Below, piece after piece: positions 4,667-32,243 of a stretch of 32,718 nt of DNA. Source of the stretch: an uncultured Ureaplasma sp. (GTDB taxonomy: Bacteria > Bacillota_I > Bacilli_A > Mycoplasmatales > Mycoplasmoidaceae); assembly GCA_902766725.1 (NCBI GenBank), contig CACXEQ010000020.1, forward strand, positions 1-32,718, read 5' to 3'. The notes beneath the pieces are model-generated. The model saw only the letters and a program-made list of their open reading frames with translations, was not told the origin of the DNA and ran no database searches. The translations under genes were made by a program, and so were the position numbers. The stretch's first letter is position 1. Each line of letters opens with the position of its first letter.

Positions 4667-5326
4667 ATGAAATTTAAAAAAATATTATTGGCAAGTTTAC
4701 CAATTATTTCTATAAATTCATTTGTTAGTTGTGGTAATGATGTAACAAACATAGGTCATAATGTTACATTATTAGTAAATGGTAAAGGTGCAAATTTTGT
4801 TGATATTAAAAAAAAGACTATACCTCATAAAGATTATGTTGTGTCGATTGTCTATCAACAAGGTTTTGAATTTGGCAAGATTAATGTCTTTGTTGGTATA
4901 AAAAAATTAAATATAAATTCTGAATATTCATTACTTGATAATAATACAAAGTTATTAATTCCTAGTGAATATTTAATTGGTGATATATTTATAATGTTAA
5001 TGCCTAATATTCAGTGAGATTATAATCCAATAAGATTTGAAAAAGATTTTAATTGAACAATAAATGGTGATTATGTTGCCGATATTAGATATGCTGCAAA
5101 TGTTGAGTTGCAAGAAGTGTGAATTCTTTTAAACAAAATAACATCCAGTGTTAGACCTTCAGATGATGATATATTGTTTCGTGCCAAATGTGATGAAACT
5201 GATTTTAAAGAAAAAATTCTTCAATATTTTAGTGATGAAACATGTACAAAATTAACTATTCCAGCAGAAATTTTTGAAAAAAATCCTATTGTTGCAATAA
5301 AAATAACTTGTAAAAAATCTAAATAA
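4667..5326 (+). CDS. Putative surface lipoprotein
   Basis: 219 residues. The N-terminus is a lipoprotein signal peptide: basic MKFKKI, a hydrophobic core, then a lipobox FVSC with Cys at about residue 22, followed by Gly-Asn. After cleavage the protein would be lipid-anchored on the outer face of the membrane. The mature part has no recognised domain. It shows two loosely similar halves, each ending in a segment like TKLLIPSEYL or TKLTIPAEIF, suggesting a duplicated unit. GAGGGG before the ATG is a plausible ribosome binding site. Two TGA codons are Trp. Function unknown; mollicute lipoproteins are often species-specific and antigenic. Confidence 0.8.
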
Positions 5327-10229: not shown

Positions 10230-11037
10230 TGGAAACTCTTTTTATCAGATCATTAAAAATAACTGTAGGTTTAATATATTTAATTTTTGATGATAATTTT
10301 AGTGTAAATGGAGGATCAAATTTTTTCTTAGAAAAACAAAATTTCTTAACAAAAGTTATTTTATTATTAAAACATGATACACGATAATGATCAATATATA
10401 AAATCTTAGTAGCATCTTGAATATCATTTAAATCATGTGTTATTCAAATAATTGTTTTTTTATATTTTTTCCATAATAAATTAACTAATTTATCAAAATC
10501 AATTTTAGATTGATTATCCAAAAATAAATTTGCTTCATCAAATATTAGTACTTCATAATTCATAGCTAGAATTGATGCTAATATAACTAATTGTTTTTCA
10601 CCACTAGATAATTTAGAAAAATTTTGATTAATAATTTTTTCTAAATGCATAATGTTTATTATTGATGAAATAATATTTTTAATTTTTTTAATAGAAATAT
10701 GCTTATTTTGTAATCAAAAGACAATATCTTCCTCTGGTGTTTGTCCAATTATTTGGTAAGGGTCATCTAAAACTACACCAATATTAGATAACAATAATTG
10801 ATAATTATGATAATTAATTGAGTTATCATTAAAAAAAATTTTGCCATCTGTTGGTTTAAGTAAACCACCTATCAATTTAACTAGAGTAGATTTACCTGAC
10901 CCATTATCACCAACTACACAAACAAAATCATTTTTTTTAATCTTAAATGATACATTATTTAAAATTTTAACATTATTGTCATAAACAAATGAAACATCTT
11001 TAAATGTGATAATATTTTTGTTAACTAATTTATACAT
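10219..11037 (-). CDS. ecfA1: ECF transporter ATP-binding protein EcfA1
   Basis: 272-residue ABC ATPase, first gene of the ECF operon. Walker A is GDNGSGKST, the Q-loop is VVLDDPYQIIGQTPEED (EcfA proteins often have QNP.QQ here), the signature KLSSGEKQLVILAS, Walker B VLIFDEANLFLD and the H-loop ITHDL. The signature serine is present, but SSGEK departs from SGGQ. Several TGA codons are Trp. The 3' end overlaps ecfA2 by 11 bp. The start is ATG at 11037; the SRP RNA gene lies upstream on the same strand. Confidence 0.9.
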
Positions 11038-21487: not shown

Positions 21488-21564
21488 GTAATTTTAATTT
21501 GAATTCAATTGTCAAATGTAATACTAAGTTTACACCTTGCTTAAGATTAAAGGGACAAAAATTT

Positions 21565-21591
21565 TTAACATTTGCTAAAAGATAATATAAT
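21565..21591 (+). promoter_or_regulatory. Promoter of the effector-associated ncRNA
   Basis: TTAACA (21565-21570) and a perfect TATAAT (21586-21591) are 15 bp apart. Transcription would start near 21598, exactly at the first stem of the predicted RNA. The -35 is approximate and the spacing slightly short. Confidence 0.6.
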
Positions 21592-21711
21592 TAAATTGTG
21601 CTCAAATTAAGCAGAACACTCAAGGGTTTTGAGCACCAATACCACGTTAAGTTCTGCAGTGTTGTAATTAATACAACATTTCACTTGGTGGCAATCATAA
21701 CTTCATTTGAG

Positions 21712-21747
21712 GTTTTGGTTGGATGTCAAATGATAGTGGACTAAAAC
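21712..21747 (+). repeat. Single Cas13a repeat-like element inside the ncRNA
   Basis: 36 nt, the usual length of type VI-A repeats, running from GTTTTGG to GGACTAAAAC. The two ends can pair (GTTTTGG with CTAAAAC, 7 bp with one G-U, extendable by two). This resembles Cas13a repeats, which begin G-A/T-T-T and end CTAAAAC. Unlike a real array there is only one copy in the window, and the usual C-rich/G-rich central stem is absent. Only the last ten bases are a convincing match, so this is a candidate, not a confirmed repeat. Confidence 0.45.
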
Positions 21748-21796
21748 ATCAAATGTCTTAGTCGCACTATCACGCAATAACTACTAATCGAACAAA

Positions 21797-21834
21797 GAAA
21801 AAAAGAGAGAAAGTTTCTCTCTTTTTTTCTTTTA
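21797..21834 (+). terminator. Rho-independent terminator of the ncRNA
   Basis: Near-perfect hairpin centred on 21813: GAGAGAA (21805-21811) pairs with TTCTCTC (21815-21821), and flanking A and T runs extend it, ending in T7. It separates the ncRNA from the effector start codon (21853) by about 20 bp, so effector mRNA needs read-through or its own weak promoter. Confidence 0.85.
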
Positions 21835-21852
21835 AAAATATAAAATAAACAT

Positions 21853-24668
21853 ATGAATCAAATAACTAAATGAAAACTAAAAAACAAAAAAAGTTGTGTC
21901 AAAATTAATGGCTTAAAAACTATTTATGTAAAAGGACAACAACTTTACTTTGATGGATTCGATGCACTATCATTTGACACCCAACCAAGTAGTAATATAA
22001 AATCAGCACTTGAATATATTATTGATGATAATAATCTAATAGATGATTTATTAGAAAATGAAAAAGAACATCAATTTTCCGTTAAAACTATTAAAGATAA
22101 TAAATATTTCTCCATTTCTAAGTTGAGAAAAGGAGAGCAAAAACCAATTAACAATAAACCTGGACGAGCTCATAATCCATTAATTAACAACAAAAAAGAA
22201 CTAAACATCTTACAAAAATGTCTACTTAAGCATTATTTTAATATTGATATAGGTACTAAACCACTAACAAATATCCCAATACAAATAATCTCATATATCC
22301 GATCTATTGAAAAACTATTTGTCTTATACATAAGTGAAATAATTAATTCACTGAATAATCAATACTATAATTTAAAAAATAATGATAATACCAATAAAAA
22401 CCATTCAGATTTATATGGCAAAACAGATTTCGGATATACAAATCATTATCAAAATAACGATAAACAAAAAGACGAATGTATTGCATTTGTTAAAAAACAC
22501 TTATATCTTTATAAAAACATAGTTTCTAATGTATCAATAAAGAAAAATAATGAATCAAAAGAACAAGTACGTAAATTATTACAGATTTTGTCATTCATTA
22601 GAAATAATCATGTTTTAGGTTTATTCTATCATCAAAATAGTTGTAATTGTAATGCAAGAAAAATTCAAAATAATGCAAATGATTTTTTAAAAAGAGCAAT
22701 TAATAACTTCACTAATGAATATAATAATTCAGAACTTTATCAATACCCAAAAATATTTTTACAAAAAATACTAAACATTAATAATTTCAATGATCTTTTT
22801 TATAAATTTAATTTTAATAATGTAATCAAAAATTTTGGTATTTCCATCAAAAAAATACGTGAATATATTATTGATGATAATGATAAAAAAGAATATATTG
22901 AAAATAAAACTATAAGATATGTTAATAAATGTTATGATTTTATAATTTGAAACTATTTTTATACTCATAAAAAAGAAACTAACAATTTTTTAAATGAAAT
23001 TAGGACATGTAATACAAATGAAAAAATCAATCAAATTTATGAAGAAAAAATAAGTTTAGAAATTAAAAAAAGTTCATTATCGATGTTTAATGAATTAAAG
23101 AAACATTTTAATAATAAGAAAAATGAAGATCTTAAAAACGAATATAAAAAAGATAAATTTGCTAAATCAAATTACAAAAACCTAGATGATAATAATCCTC
23201 CTGATTTTGCTGGTTTTATTTATGTTATGTGTTGTTTTCTTGATGAAAAGGAAATAAATGAATTTACTAATTTTTTAATTAAATATTTTTCCTCAATAAG
23301 ATCATTATTAATTGTTCATGAAAACAATTTTAAAAATGATGAAAATTTTGACAATTTCTATCAGAACTATCCGACATTTAAAATAGAAAATATTGAGAAT
23401 TTAATTTGTTATTTGCATAGAATTCAATCAATATGTAAACTAAATAAAAAAATTTTCAATGACAAAAAAATGACAATTCAAAAACAAACATTACACGATT
23501 GGAATTAAATAATTTTTGCCATAAATTATTTAATAATTCTAATCAAAATAAGATAAACCAAAACACACTAAATTCAATTGAATCTCAACATTATCTAAAT
23601 ATTGCTAATGATAGAAAATTTATTTATGTAATAAAACATATTAATTTGTCAAATAGTCAATATCTTCTAAACAATTATTCATTAATAAAATGCATAGTTT
23701 CATACCAAATATCTGAAAATCAAAAAAATAATTTTTTTAATTTGAAGAAGAATAAATCAACCGAAAATTATTTGATAGATACAATTTGCAAATTAAAGGA
23801 TGTTAATTTCATTAATGAGCAAATTAATAAGAGTGAGGCAAATAAAAATGAAATAAGATATGCAATGCAAATTTATTTATCGGCATTATACCTTTTTACA
23901 AAAAGTCTTAAAAGAATTAATTCACTATATGCTATTGCATGAATATCATATGAACAAGATTGGTATTTATTTAATAAATATTTCAAAAGAAAAACTAATG
24001 TTCCTGATAAACATAAAAAATATAAAAGAGATGATTATACATTTGATATTTCCCAAGCAATATTATTTAATGAAAACAACTCAAATAACTTTTACAAACA
24101 AAACAAAAAATCTTATATGTTTAGAAAAAATTTTCAAGCACTTAAAAAAACATATGATGATTATTTATTAACAATATCAAAAGACAAAAAAATTAATATA
24201 ACAAAAATTAGACCTTTTATTAAACAATTTAGAAATGCTGTCATGCATTTTGATGTATTAAACAAATGATCAAATCTGTCAATTCTTACCAACCATCAGA
24301 TTTATAAAAATGAAAATGCAAATTGTTTTTATTTTGATATATATCAATATCTTTATCAAGCAAGTTTTGTTAAAAACATCAATGAAATAATTAAAAAAAA
24401 TGATGTGGCTAATCTACTAAAAAAAGAAGATATTGAATTATTAGGCAAAGATTTTTATGCATTTAACTTAAAAGGTTATAAGAATGATAAGTCTCAAGAT
24501 ATATACGATAAAAACATGAATAAAATATCACAATATTCAAAAAGATTTTTAAAATTAATAAATTTACCATTCGCCTATTGTATTGCAAGATACAAATCAT
24601 TGACAAATAAGCAAATTTTTAATAAATTACAAAAATTTGGGATGGATAATACAAAAATTAACCAATAA
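21853..24668 (+). CDS. Cas13-like two-HEPN RNA-guided ribonuclease candidate (one frameshift)
   Basis: About 938 residues in two overlapping frames: 21853-23508 (ATG to TAA) and an open frame from 23439 to 24668. Joining needs a -1 shift, most simply at one of two A7 tracts (23446-23452, 23464-23470). The C-terminal half holds a textbook HEPN RNase motif, QFRNAVMHFD (RNxxxH, 24231-24248, joined residue about 794). The N-terminal half has LSFIRNNHVLGLFYH at residue 250: Arg-Asn is kept but the expected His at +5 is Leu. The motifs are about 544 residues apart, similar to Cas13a (about 576 in the Leptotrichia buccalis enzyme as I recall), while the region before the first motif is about 220 residues shorter. 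The protein is Lys/Asn/Ile-rich and helical with no signal peptide. Three TGA codons or more are Trp. No Shine-Dalgarno precedes the ATG. It follows the ncRNA at 21598 and has no Cas1, Cas2 or array nearby. Alternative: a large AbiF/Abi_2-like HEPN toxin. Confidence 0.62.
21965..21988 (+). promoter_or_regulatory. Site in effector mRNA complementary to the ncRNA
   Basis: These 24 nt (codons 38-46) are the reverse complement of ncRNA positions 21715-21738 at 23 of 24 bases; the mismatch is A21723 opposite C21980. One G-U pair extends it. Such pairing would form in trans between ncRNA and mRNA, or in cis on a read-through transcript. Its function (repression, self-targeting or immunity switch) is inference. 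Confidence 0.6.
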
Positions 24669-26925: not shown

Positions 26926-29900
26926 ATGATTTTGAACAATTATAGAAATAAATTCATTGATAAAATTAATCCAATCACTGAATGCAACAGAAAAATGAAA
27001 TATGGAGAAGTTTTTACTCCATGTAATGTTGTACTATATATGCTGCACTTAATAGGTATTGATAGAGAATGTAATTATCAAACTAAAATATTTGAACCAG
27101 GATGCGGAAAAGGTAATTTTCTTATTGAAATTCTTAATTATAAATTACAAAATATTATTAATGTCATAAATAAAAATATTAAAAGAGATCAAACATGAAT
27201 TGAATGTTTAATTCTACTTGCAATAAGTTCAATTTATGGTTGTGATATCAATAATGATAATTTAAATTTTACTAGAAACCGATTATTAAGTTATGTTAAA
27301 AAATTTTGCCTATCAAAATTAAAAATCAAACCAACAAATACTTTTTTAGTCTGTCTTGAAAAATTATTGTCACTAACTATTTTTAAATTAAATTTACTTG
27401 ATAATATAAAAATTATCGAAAAACAATTACCAATATTTAAATTGATAGATAAGCAAATTTTTTATTGTTATTACAATTGTTTTTTAAATGCATATATAGA
27501 TGATAATGATGATCAAGAATCATTATTTGATCCACAATCATTTAATTCACGTGCGCCAAAAAACAAATGGAAAAAAATAGAATATAATAAAATATTCAAT
27601 TTCATAATGCATAATATGACAACTTCTAAATTAGGCAGAGAGAGAGAGAGTATCAACAATTAACTAATGAAATTAAAAACCAATTTGGTTTTAGTGATAA
27701 TTTCAAATTTGACTATATAATTTCTAACCCGCCTTATCAAATATCAGAGAAAACTAAAAATATTGATATTTGAGATAAATTTGTTTCTTTAGCAAATAAT
27801 TTATCCAATAAATCTATTTTGATTCATCCGGCAAGATGATTATTTCCAAAAAGACACATGGAAAATGTTTATAAAAGAATTATTAACTATCCCTTAAATA
27901 AAATTTTTTATTTTCCAAATGCAAGTCAATTATTTAAAACCACATCTATCGATTCAGGTTTAACAATAACTATTTTTAATCATGATAATAAACATAAAAA
28001 TGTATATTTTGAAAATTCACAAACTCCTGATGATGATAAATTTAATTTTTACATAAATTTAAAAAATGAAACAATTAAATTTACAAATAAATTTGAATCT
28101 GAAATATATAACAAATTAAGTTGTCAAATGCTTAAAACAAAAAGCATAGAAAAAAGAATAAAGGGAAATGTAGGCTCACTTGGTGGTTCTGAATATGGTT
28201 ACAAAAAACAATATCATATTCAATCTTTACATGATACTTCAAATGGTCTTATTAATCCCATAAAAATATGAGCCAACAAAAATTTCGGTAAAGGGAGCAA
28301 ATATAAATTTTATTTTATAGAAAAAAATAAATTAACATTTCTACCTAATGAAATATTACAGTCCCGAAAAGTGATGTTAGATAAAAAAGGGCATGCAATT
28401 ACAACAAATAAAAAAGGAAACATAATTAATAATAATCCAATGATTGTAGATAAAAATGTTATTGCTTCAGGTGATGTTTTTTTCGTTCTACCAGAAATTG
28501 ATTCAGATTATCATTTGAATTTAATTAAAACATATTTTATGACAAAAACTATACGATTTTTATTAACAATAAAACAAAAAGATCTATATGTAAGAGGATT
28601 TGAAATTTTACCTGATTATACATTTTTTTTAAATCAATTAAAAAATAAATTATTTGATGATAAATTTTTTTACAATAACTTTAATTTTAGTCAGGACCTA
28701 ATAAATCATATTGAAAGTGTAATCACAGAAAAAAACAATCCAACAATGAATAAATTATCATTATGACAATTAAATAACAATGAAAAATTAGCATATTCTA
28801 CTCAAAATGCTAATGAATATAGGGGCATATATTGCTTTACCTTTAAAAGTGATAAATATAAAAAAAATCTTATGAAAATTGGTCAATTTACAATGCCAAA
28901 TCCATTAGATATTAATGATAATGAAAATAAAATTACAGCAGAAAAGAGAATTAAACAACAAGAAGGTATCAGTGAAAAAGTGAATGGTGTAGAATTTGAA
29001 CCAAACTGGTATTATCCAGCTAAATTTAAAGATACTAGAAATACATTTACTGATAAAGATTTTCACAAATGACTAAGAAAAAATTTAGGTGATAATATCA
29101 ATATAAAATATCATAAAAATAATAGATATTCTGAACTTTTTGATTTAACTGCTAATCAATCTTGAAATTATTTCAACAATTTTATAAATCATGAACCACC
29201 AAATAATCATGATAATATTAAAACACCTTTTTACATTAGACCAGAACAAGAAAATGGCATCAATAAATTAACAAAATTCTGAAAAAAATGTTGTTCTAAT
29301 CCAAATCAAAAAAAATTTTTTTTATTCAATGCTATTATGCGTTTTGGAAAATGTATAACAACATATGAATTTATTAGAAGAAATAATGATATAAAACATA
29401 TTTTAATTCTTAGTCATCGACCCGATGTTTTTAATTCATGAGAAGATGATTATAAAAACTATTTATGTGATTTTTGCGAAGAAAAAAAGTATAAAATTTG
29501 AAATAAAAGTCTTAAAGAATCAATAAATAGTTTTAATAAGGTATCTAATAATATTATCGCTTTTGTTTCTATCCAAGATTTACGTGGAGAAGAAAAAATT
29601 AAATGAAATGAAGATGAAAACACAAATGAACAGGATATACAAGAAATAGTTACTAGGTTTAAGCAAAATAATAAGGAAATTTTTGATTTTCAATGAGATT
29701 TAGTTGTTGTAGATGAAGCACATGAAGGGATATTAACAAAGTTAGCTGCAAGGATGTTTAATAATTTTACTTATAAGCCAAAAATGTATATCTTATTATC
29801 AGGTACACCTTTCAATTTAAAATCACACGCTGAACAAATATATGATAATATAGACAAATTTAATGAAGCTAATAGTTTTGAATATAGCTTCTTAGATGAA

Positions 29901-31658
29901 GATTCTTTAAAAGATGAACAAAAAAAATTAAAATACCAATATCAATATTATCAGGACATTCCTGAATTACGTATATTAACTATAACTGTCACTGATCCAA
30001 ATATGAAAAATACTTTTAAAAATGATTATTTTGGATTTAATAAATTTTTTGAATTGAATGATAATAATAAATTTGTTGATGAACAAGCAATTGATATTTT
30101 TTTAAATAATTTATGTAGTGATGATCAAAAATTCATTAATTATCCATATTCAAGAAAGTGTAGAAATGATACAAAATGTGCAATGTGAATGTTACCTAGT
30201 GTTAAAGTGGCAAAAGCATTAAAGAAAAAACTTCAAGCACATCGTTTTTTTAAAGAATATGACATATTTGATGTCACTGGTGAAGCATATAGTTCAGATA
30301 ATTTTTCATCACTTAAAAAAGAAGTAGATACAATAGATAAAAAGATAATTATTTTATCATTTAGAAGATTGACAACTGGTGTAACATTAAAAGGGTTATC
30401 TACTATCCTATTTTTAAATGATACTACATCACTTATTTCTTACTACCAAACAATGTTCAGAGTTAAAAACCCTTATCCACTAAATTGGGATAAAAAAAAG
30501 AAAATAGGATTGATATTTGATTTTAATACCTTTAGATGTCTTAATAATACTTATGAACTTGCTAATGAAACTAGTAAAAATGGTCAAGCAAATGATGAAC
30601 AATATAACAAGATAATTAATTATTTTAACATCCATGGTATAGATGATAAATCAAATGTATTTAATTTAACAAAAATATCAATTAATAAATTGACTGAGCA
30701 AGCAAATAAAGCTATTGCCGCTGCGGCCTATGACTCTGGTTGTTTAAGAATTAGTAAATTTTTTGATCCACATAATTATCAAAGCATTAATAAATTTATT
30801 AATAAACTTGATGGCTATAGTTATTCAAGGAACAAAAATTTAGATGTAAATGTAATAATAAATAACACAACTGGTAAGCCGATTTTAGCATCCAAAAAAA
30901 ACTTAACACCTAAGGAAAAAGACAAATTAAAAAAAGAAAAAATAGAAATTCATAAAATAATAGGAATATTTGTAAAAATTCCTATTCTGATGCTTGGTAT
31001 GTATGATAAATTACATGATCTTATTTTTAATCAAAATGTTAATAATCCTGATTTTGATCAAATGTTTAATGATAATATAATTAATATTGATGAATGAAAA
31101 TCAATAATGTCCCCTAATAAAGATGAAACTAAATGCATTGAGAAAAAAGATTTCAAAGAATTATGCAAAATGGCTAAACCAGGAGTTTTTCTTGAAACTT
31201 TTAAAAGATATTTAAAAGAAATAGAAAAAATATTTAGTTATGCTAGTCCATTAGCAAGAGAAGAACAATGAATTGAATTCTTCAAAAAGATTCAAAATCC
31301 TAACAAAGAAACTGTCTTTACACCTTATGATGTCATTAAATTACAATATGATAAGGCTAAAATAAATTGACCCAATGCTTATAAAACTAAACAAAAATTT
31401 CTTGATATTTATTCCAAAGAGTCATTATATAGTTATTATGCAGCTTGTAGATTATATGAGCAAGCTATTAAAAATATAAATCTAGATAACAACAAGGATA
31501 AAATTCAAAGAATTTGAAACAAAATTATCTACAATCAAATATATTGTTGTTACCAAAATGGAATGTTTTCAACTATTGCACAAAAAATTTTAGGTTTCAA
31601 ACCAAAATCTAAATATATTTGTCAAATAGATCTAGTAAATAAACTCAATAATGAATAA
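26926..31658 (+). CDS. Single-chain restriction-modification protein: N6-adenine methyltransferase plus DEAH helicase (phase OFF)
   Basis: About 1,577 residues if whole. Frame 1 runs 26926-27663 and stops; the rest continues in another frame to TAA at 31658. The break coincides with (AG)7 at 27637-27650. Losing one AG or gaining two restores one frame, so this copy is OFF and makes a 245-residue stub. Domains in order: methyltransferase with KYGEVFTP (from about residue 25), AdoMet loop FEPGCGKGNF, second acidic motif YGCDINND, and catalytic NPPY (27726-27737); a probable target-recognition region; a segment GIYCFTFKSD...MKIGQF...AEKRIKQQ (28818-29090) like GIY-YIG/T5orf172 domains; then an SF2 helicase with FNAIMRFGKC (motif I), VVDEAHEG (29712-29723) and SGTPF. 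The C-terminal 200 residues are unassigned. No Shine-Dalgarno. Many TGA codons are Trp. Confidence 0.85.
27637..27650 (+). repeat. (AG)7 dinucleotide tract in methyltransferase coding region
   Basis: Seven AG units at the exact point where the reading frame changes. In mollicutes and other bacteria, such tracts within mod genes cause phase variation by slipped-strand mispairing. Copy numbers divisible by three (6 or 9) give the full protein; seven gives a stop 11 bp later. Confidence 0.9.
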
Positions 31659-31839: not shown

Positions 31840-32160
31840 TTAATTTTTTAAATTATTAACTCTAACTGTTCTATCAAACCTTTTTTCTAATCGATCAAGT
31901 CTTTTATCCATCTTTTCAAATCTTTGATCTATTTTTTCAAATTTTTTGTCTATCTGTTCAAATTTTTCATCTATTTTTTCAAATTTTTGGTTATTTCTTT
32001 TTTCAAATTCAATAAATCAAACTGGAGGTTTAGTTCTTGGTTTGATTATAGATCTACCTTTAGATTCAACTCTTTCTAAATCTATTTTTTTGCCAATAAA
32101 GCTTTTATCTATATTGGTATTTACTACTTTGTATTTAAGAATTTTTGTTTTCTTACACAT
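31840..32160 (-). CDS. Short coiled-coil protein, resembles mycoplasma DUF16 proteins
   Basis: 106 residues. A basic N-terminal part (to about residue 50) is followed by an almost perfect heptad repeat: FEKIDEK, FEQIDKK, FEKIDQR, FEKMDKR, LDRLEKR. The a/d positions are Phe and Ile/Met/Leu, so this is a strong parallel coiled coil that should oligomerise. DUF16 proteins of M. pneumoniae end in similar coiled coils; family membership is inferred from this only. One TGA is Trp. It is convergent with the restriction-modification gene. The 181-bp gap between them holds only a weak inverted repeat (TTAATCT...AGATTAA, 31674-31707) that may act in termination. Confidence 0.75.
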
Positions 32161-32243
32161 GCTATCTTTATACATATTATATATTTACCACTTAAATTAG
32201 ACATTTCAATTTAGATTGATTTTTTTCTAAATATAATTTACAA

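Follow-up and report, generated by a model that had tools for sequence, protein, structure and literature searches.

An uncultured Ureaplasma sp. carries, as judged from its sequence, what is very probably a phase-variable (contingency) restriction-modification (R-M) gene, assembled in the off state. The gene lies in the window, by which we mean the whole 32,718-nucleotide stretch of DNA that was analysed, corresponding to contig C20 of a 614,885-base, 38-contig assembly that is 81.7% complete. The window has a G+C content of 24% and its genes require TGA to be read as tryptophan (code 4). R-M genes switched by AG repeats have already been described in mycoplasmas; the novelty lies in the class of the enzyme and in repeats having been gained more than once. 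Most phase-variable methyltransferases known so far belong to type I, III or IIG systems; here, the same device would act on another enzyme class, in a mollicute.

The AG tract and the reading-frame break

The features of the R-M locus, with their window coordinates and strand, are as follows:

26926..27663, +, ORF1 (module A), AdoMet-binding half of the methyltransferase, with a 245-aa product predicted for (AG)7 (code-4 ORF; Pfam; PADLOC)
27637..27650, +, (AG)7 candidate slippage tract where modules A and B meet (repeat scan; equivalent tract in relative G292, L076 5440-5455)
27661..27667, +, two out-of-frame TAA stops, one per wrong frame, directly after the tract, at 27661-27663 and 27665-27667 (sequence; layout similar to that of MmyCI mod, PMC3498834)
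27651..28769, +, module B, with NPPY and a presumed target-recognition region (tblastn matches to the G014 methyltransferase and to the G292, G298 and G265 loci)
28770..29210, +, putative T5orf172/GIY-YIG-like nuclease domain (alignments A1 and A2, with conserved IY, KIG, R, H and E residues)
29235..30629, +, SF2 helicase/translocase (Pfam ResIII, 4e-13; alignment A1; RFGK at 29340-29351, DEAH at about 29712, SGTP at about 29799)
31278..31658, +, C-terminal stretch, related to the N-terminal part of methyltransferases, containing the degenerate motif-I-like sequence FLDIYSKESLYSYY (alignment)

ORF1 starts with the ATG at 26926 and terminates, after 245 aa, at a TAA (27661-27663, code 4) directly past a perfect (AG)7 tract, which is preceded by GGC and followed by TATC. 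The downstream frame (ORF2) is closed at its upstream end by the TAA at 27627-27629 and remains open up to the stop at 31656-31658. Because these two TAA codons bound both frames, the frame change is confined to a 31-bp zone (27630-27660). An earlier, sequence-only reading had placed the (AG)7 tract exactly at the frame break, between the AdoMet loop and NPPY, and both points were borne out: the tract falls within the forced zone, with motif I (FEPGCGKGNF) upstream at 27091-27120 and NPPY downstream at 27726-27737.

A scripted reading of unit counts produced one uninterrupted protein of 1576, 1578 or 1580 aa with 6, 9 or 12 units, respectively. The claim that 6 or 9 units would restore a single protein thus stands, but the figure of 1,577 residues given with it is a count of codons including the stop, the predicted products having 1576 or 1578 aa. 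Counts of 4, 5, 7, 8, 10 or 11 units yielded products of 243-249 aa (245 aa for the assembled 7), because either wrong frame runs into a TAA just past the tract (27661 and 27665). As in a phase-variable R-M gene, the unit count sets the reading frame, the wrong frames meet stops shortly past the repeat, and the repeat exceeds what chance would give. The tract appeared in 0 of 100 dinucleotide shuffles of the window, and its expected number under a first-order model was 9.6e-6 per window and 1.8e-4 per 615 kb; leaving aside (AG)7, which can also be read as GA, no dinucleotide run in the window is longer than four units.

In the mechanism that we propose, slipped-strand mispairing during replication would add or remove AG units, such that 6, 9 and 12 units would keep one frame and counts such as the assembled 7 would not. 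An in-frame count would let translation run through to a chain of about 1,576 residues, in which an Eco57I-like adenine methyltransferase and its recognition region would be followed by a T5orf172/GIY-YIG nuclease and an SF2 translocase. An out-of-frame count would stop translation directly past the tract, ahead of NPPY, abolishing methylation and cleavage at once. By analogy with described systems such as MmyCI and Cj0031c, we infer slippage in the host species, activity of the enzyme and an effect on phage or gene expression.

The downstream frame contains 1,342 open codons in code 4, with a chance of about 1e-44 at the base composition of the window, and over its approximately 4 kb it shows coding-type codon positions and intact conserved motifs, which argues against an old pseudogene. 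We also considered a natural split of the gene, in which ORF1 would supply an independent AdoMet-binding subunit and ORF2 would have a start of its own. Relatives G014, G257, G267 and G270 and lactobacillus and lactococcus plasmids indeed have stand-alone motif-I genes of comparable size beside an NPPY gene. However, the ORF2 frame lacks ATG, GTG and TTG in 27630-27819, and hence has none before NPPY at 27726, which argues against two proteins and led us to drop a separate ORF2 start; moreover, both halves are joined across the equivalent position in relatives G292, G030 and G265, making a natural split highly improbable. The probability that programmed ribosomal frameshifting generates both products from the 7-unit gene is close to negligible: the two frames do overlap in a short zone, but 27600-27662 contains no slippery heptamer of the X XXY YYZ type, on which ground this candidate was dropped, and the relative with (AG)8 needs no shift. 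Searches of the window against Rfam matched only tRNAs and the SRP RNA, with no match at the R-M locus.

Domains of the predicted enzyme

Judging by its domains, the in-frame enzyme would be a single chain comprising an Eco57I-like methyltransferase, a T5orf172/GIY-YIG-type nuclease and a helicase, and the earlier proposal that methylation and cleavage reside in one chain holds at the domain level. ORF1 matched Pfam N6_Mtase (3.8e-5, above the curated cut-off) and PADLOC MTase_II (4e-8).

In the alignment of the nuclease domain, residues Y, K, G, R, H and E were invariant in 25 sequences, window included. Pfam T5orf172 matched two of four aligned members (best 5.1e-10), the window protein itself being unmatched. 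The predicted structure of this region had a pLDDT of 80, and a Foldseek comparison of the model with PDB returned no solved relative, only meaningless matches. Because of this Foldseek result, the nuclease call rests on sequence, and we designate 28770-29210 a putative T5orf172/GIY-YIG-type nuclease-like domain. Sequence searches of PDB with the window enzyme gave no match at E 0.01. As for the C-terminal stretch, residues 957-1058 of the enzyme from relative G023 match the N-terminus of the G014 methyltransferase.

Repeats in the assembly and in relatives

Only three AG tracts in the 615-kb assembly reach 5 units or more: they have 7, 10 and 15 units, tracts of exactly 5 or 6 being absent, and all three sit in R-M genes and are out of frame. 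On C16, (AG)10 at 4916 breaks a type I hsdS gene adjoining hsdR (L009, G000:C16, 4311-6082, -); in G013 (L031), an hsdS relative whose flanks are very similar carries (AG)9, and its 609-aa frame is open. On C26, a small methyltransferase gene has (AG)15 at 10954, close to its start, with the ATG in another frame, and is followed by an HNH-type gene (L010, G000:C26, 10929-12873, +). The counterparts of the C26 gene in G001 and G003, from the same genus, contain 16 and 14 units and are also out of frame, but in different frames. The 11 bases directly before the tract, CTAAATTAGGC, are common to the window and C26. A search for poly-G tracts of at least 8, as another class of switch, found none in the window's own genome. 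Independent switching, if it occurs in all three AG-tract R-M genes, would allow as many as eight restriction/methylation states within one clonal population of a cell whose genome is very small.

Upstream of the R-M locus, the window contains a Cas13d-like gene (21853-24668, +) with NCBIfam VI_Cas13d matches of 1e-34 and 1e-17 on its two halves, the only Cas13d match among 59 genomes searched. The frame of this gene breaks somewhere in 23448-23505, an interval with a run of seven A. The region between the tRNA cluster and the Cas13d-like gene (21540-21850) contains inverted repeats and the sequence TGGACTAAAAC, which we take to resemble the end of Cas13d direct repeats; neither direct repeats nor an array were found in this region. 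Elsewhere, a coiled-coil-like protein is encoded at 31840-32175 (-), and its 21-bp tandem repeats (31895-31988) preserve the reading frame.

The frame of the neighbouring Cas13d-like gene is interrupted as well, with no dinucleotide tract involved, so some weight must be given to local decay or assembly error. A young pseudogene, in which a fixed, recent inactivating mutation happened to fall in the tract, would be in line with this second broken gene and with all three AG-tract genes being out of frame, although the latter is expected about 30% of the time if frames are equally likely. We consider it quite unlikely, since the tract coincides with the forced zone, the roughly 4 kb of downstream frame are intact and include conserved motifs, and relatives retain repeats in the same module, some of them in open frames. 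Alternatively, the unit count could be an assembly or sequencing error, the true majority count being 6 or 9 and the gene on; the tract would then still be a switch. The draft nature of the assembly (38 contigs, 81.7% complete) and the presence of AG tracts at the start or end of some relatives' contigs speak for such an error. Nevertheless, short reads easily span a 14-bp dinucleotide tract and the long housekeeping ORFs of the window (FtsH-, DnaG- and GroEL-like) are unbroken, making this very unlikely. Weighing against the phase-switch reading itself, (AG)7 is short in comparison with most AG tracts in relatives; its switching may be slow.

We searched 320 genomes of the order and detected the nuclease-helicase part at E <= 1e-20 in 19 of them, the window's own included. 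Relatives were recovered by profile search; a single-protein search of genome contigs returned no relative, and the five other genomes of the window's genus gave no match. In the loci of the 18 relatives, taken with their flanks and chosen by the nuclease-helicase match, not by repeats, we mapped methyltransferase matches, nuclease-helicase matches and repeats.

G292, from another genus and only distantly related (identity to the window protein about 30-35%), carries (AG)8 at the equivalent position within an open methyltransferase frame of 626 codons, that is, a different count with an open frame; its nuclease-helicase is a second gene. The equivalence of the tract is seen from the comparison of ETREREREKHIYNQIKNEI...ISNPPYQ with KLGRERE...YQQLTNEI...ISNPPYQ. 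Just past NPPY, (CT)7 in G030 and (CT)8 in G265 occur in broken frames and a poly-G run of 11 in G014 occurs in an open one. In G023, a poly-C run of 8 within NPP accompanies a broken frame, and a paralogue in the same genome, with a run of 7, is open. G299 has two copies, with poly-G runs of 9 and 10, both broken; the frames are also broken in G298, with a poly-G run of 11, and in G257, with (TA)9, and open in G181, with (AC)11. Different repeat types therefore occur in the same protein module across genera.

Altogether, methyltransferase repeats were found in nine genomes besides the window, counting G298 even though its tract is just outside the automatic mask. With this mask and including the window, 11 of the 14 counted repeats fell within methyltransferase modules, which represent 17% of the 268.6 kb examined (binomial p = 7e-7). 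The open (AG)8 gene of G292, the slippery repeats in the methyltransferases of relatives and the two additional AG-tract R-M genes of the assembly lend strong support to the original suggestion of a phase-variable R-M gene in the OFF state.

Among the mollicute loci read, a single chain that opens with the methyltransferase and also includes nuclease and helicase occurs only in the window. The other loci consist of two genes, or have the nuclease-helicase first with methyltransferase sequence behind (G181, G298 and G299, and likewise the plasmid relatives). Several relatives encode the motif-I half in a gene of its own (213-243 aa) next to the NPPY gene, and the window tract sits at that junction.

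Other variable-looking sequences were observed during this mapping. In G085 and G088, belonging to another family, the middle 1.8 kb of a homologous gene (L084 4762-6549 and L085 4893-6689) is inverted relative to its ends and bounded by 10-bp inverted repeats (AATGGAAATT; AATGGATATT), possibly constituting an inversion-type switch. Long AG/CT tracts in L018, L019, L020, L021, L023, L029 and L033 are mostly located in hsdS-, type III mod- and other methyltransferase-like genes, according to motifs recognized by eye, which gave no clear assignment for L022 and L028. Three contigs begin or end in AG tracts (G004:C6:1, the end of G007:C3, and G029:C1:1), a pattern that variable tract length in the sampled population, or failed assembly at these sites, would produce.

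A broader proposal, which we regard as possible if rather doubtful, is that these enzymes form a separate class of ATP-dependent R-M enzyme, composed of an Eco57I-like methyltransferase, a GIY-YIG-type nuclease and an SF2 translocase and existing in permuted one-chain and two-gene forms. Phase switches would have been gained many times independently in this class in mollicutes, through AG, CT, AC, TA or poly-G repeats and perhaps DNA inversion. They would often lie near NPPY, where the AdoMet-binding half meets the catalytic half, so that the off state of the window gene would leave a stand-alone AdoMet-binding module sized like the separate gene of relatives. The set of loci is a concrete test bed for how often and where such repeats arise.

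Enzyme class and comparison with known systems

By its domains, the window enzyme is neither type III, type ISP nor type IIG. A type III assignment was rejected because, in frame, no stop separates the methyltransferase and helicase parts, as opposed to separate mod and res genes. With regard to type III Res, a ResIII helicase is present and the GIY-YIG/T5orf172-type nuclease-like domain is N-terminal to it; family profiles (E up to 1) revealed no C-terminal nuclease family in the window enzyme. To our knowledge, type IIG enzymes have no helicase, and this class, being defined without one, was discarded in view of the ResIII helicase.

Type ISP enzymes (LlaGI, LlaBIII) are single chains of around 1,570 residues, in the order Mrr-like nuclease, helicase, methyltransferase and TRD. 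The window enzyme is like them in uniting nuclease, SF2 translocase and methyltransferase in one chain of similar length, but it begins with the methyltransferase and its nuclease is GIY-YIG-like; we rejected the type ISP assignment on this order, methyltransferase-nuclease-helicase. Plasmids of Lactococcus, Vagococcus and Lactiplantibacillus encode proteins annotated as 'Eco57I restriction-modification methylase domain-containing protein' that also combine, in one chain, a homologous helicase part and an Eco57I-like methyltransferase. In these plasmid enzymes, unlike in the window, the methyltransferase is C-terminal, and a separate small N-6 methylase gene adjoins in two of the three records viewed.

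As regards the switch, a single phase-variable gene for both methylation and cleavage is known in Cj0031c of Campylobacter jejuni, a type IIG system in which a change of phase affected methylation, transcript levels and the restriction of phages (PMC4889913); in the window, this double role is deduced from domains, and the enzyme differs in having a helicase. MhoVII of Mycoplasma hominis likewise contains a simple repeat within a mollicute methyltransferase, a TA repeat in the recognition region that was suggested to be phase variable (PMC12898733), but it is a type II fusion of two methyltransferases. The window gene shares with MmyCI of Mycoplasma mycoides subsp. capri and with the mod genes of M. 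agalactiae an AG/GA tract within a mollicute methyltransferase gene, and would share with them on and off alleles that differ in units: the MmyCI mod gene is off with AG12 and on with AG10 (PMC3498834), and the poly(GA) mod genes of M. agalactiae have 4-17 GA units (PMC9465063). Those systems are type III, with separate mod and res genes, whereas the window gene would specify one chain; as in the window, a TAA stands directly behind the MmyCI repeat in the wrong frames.
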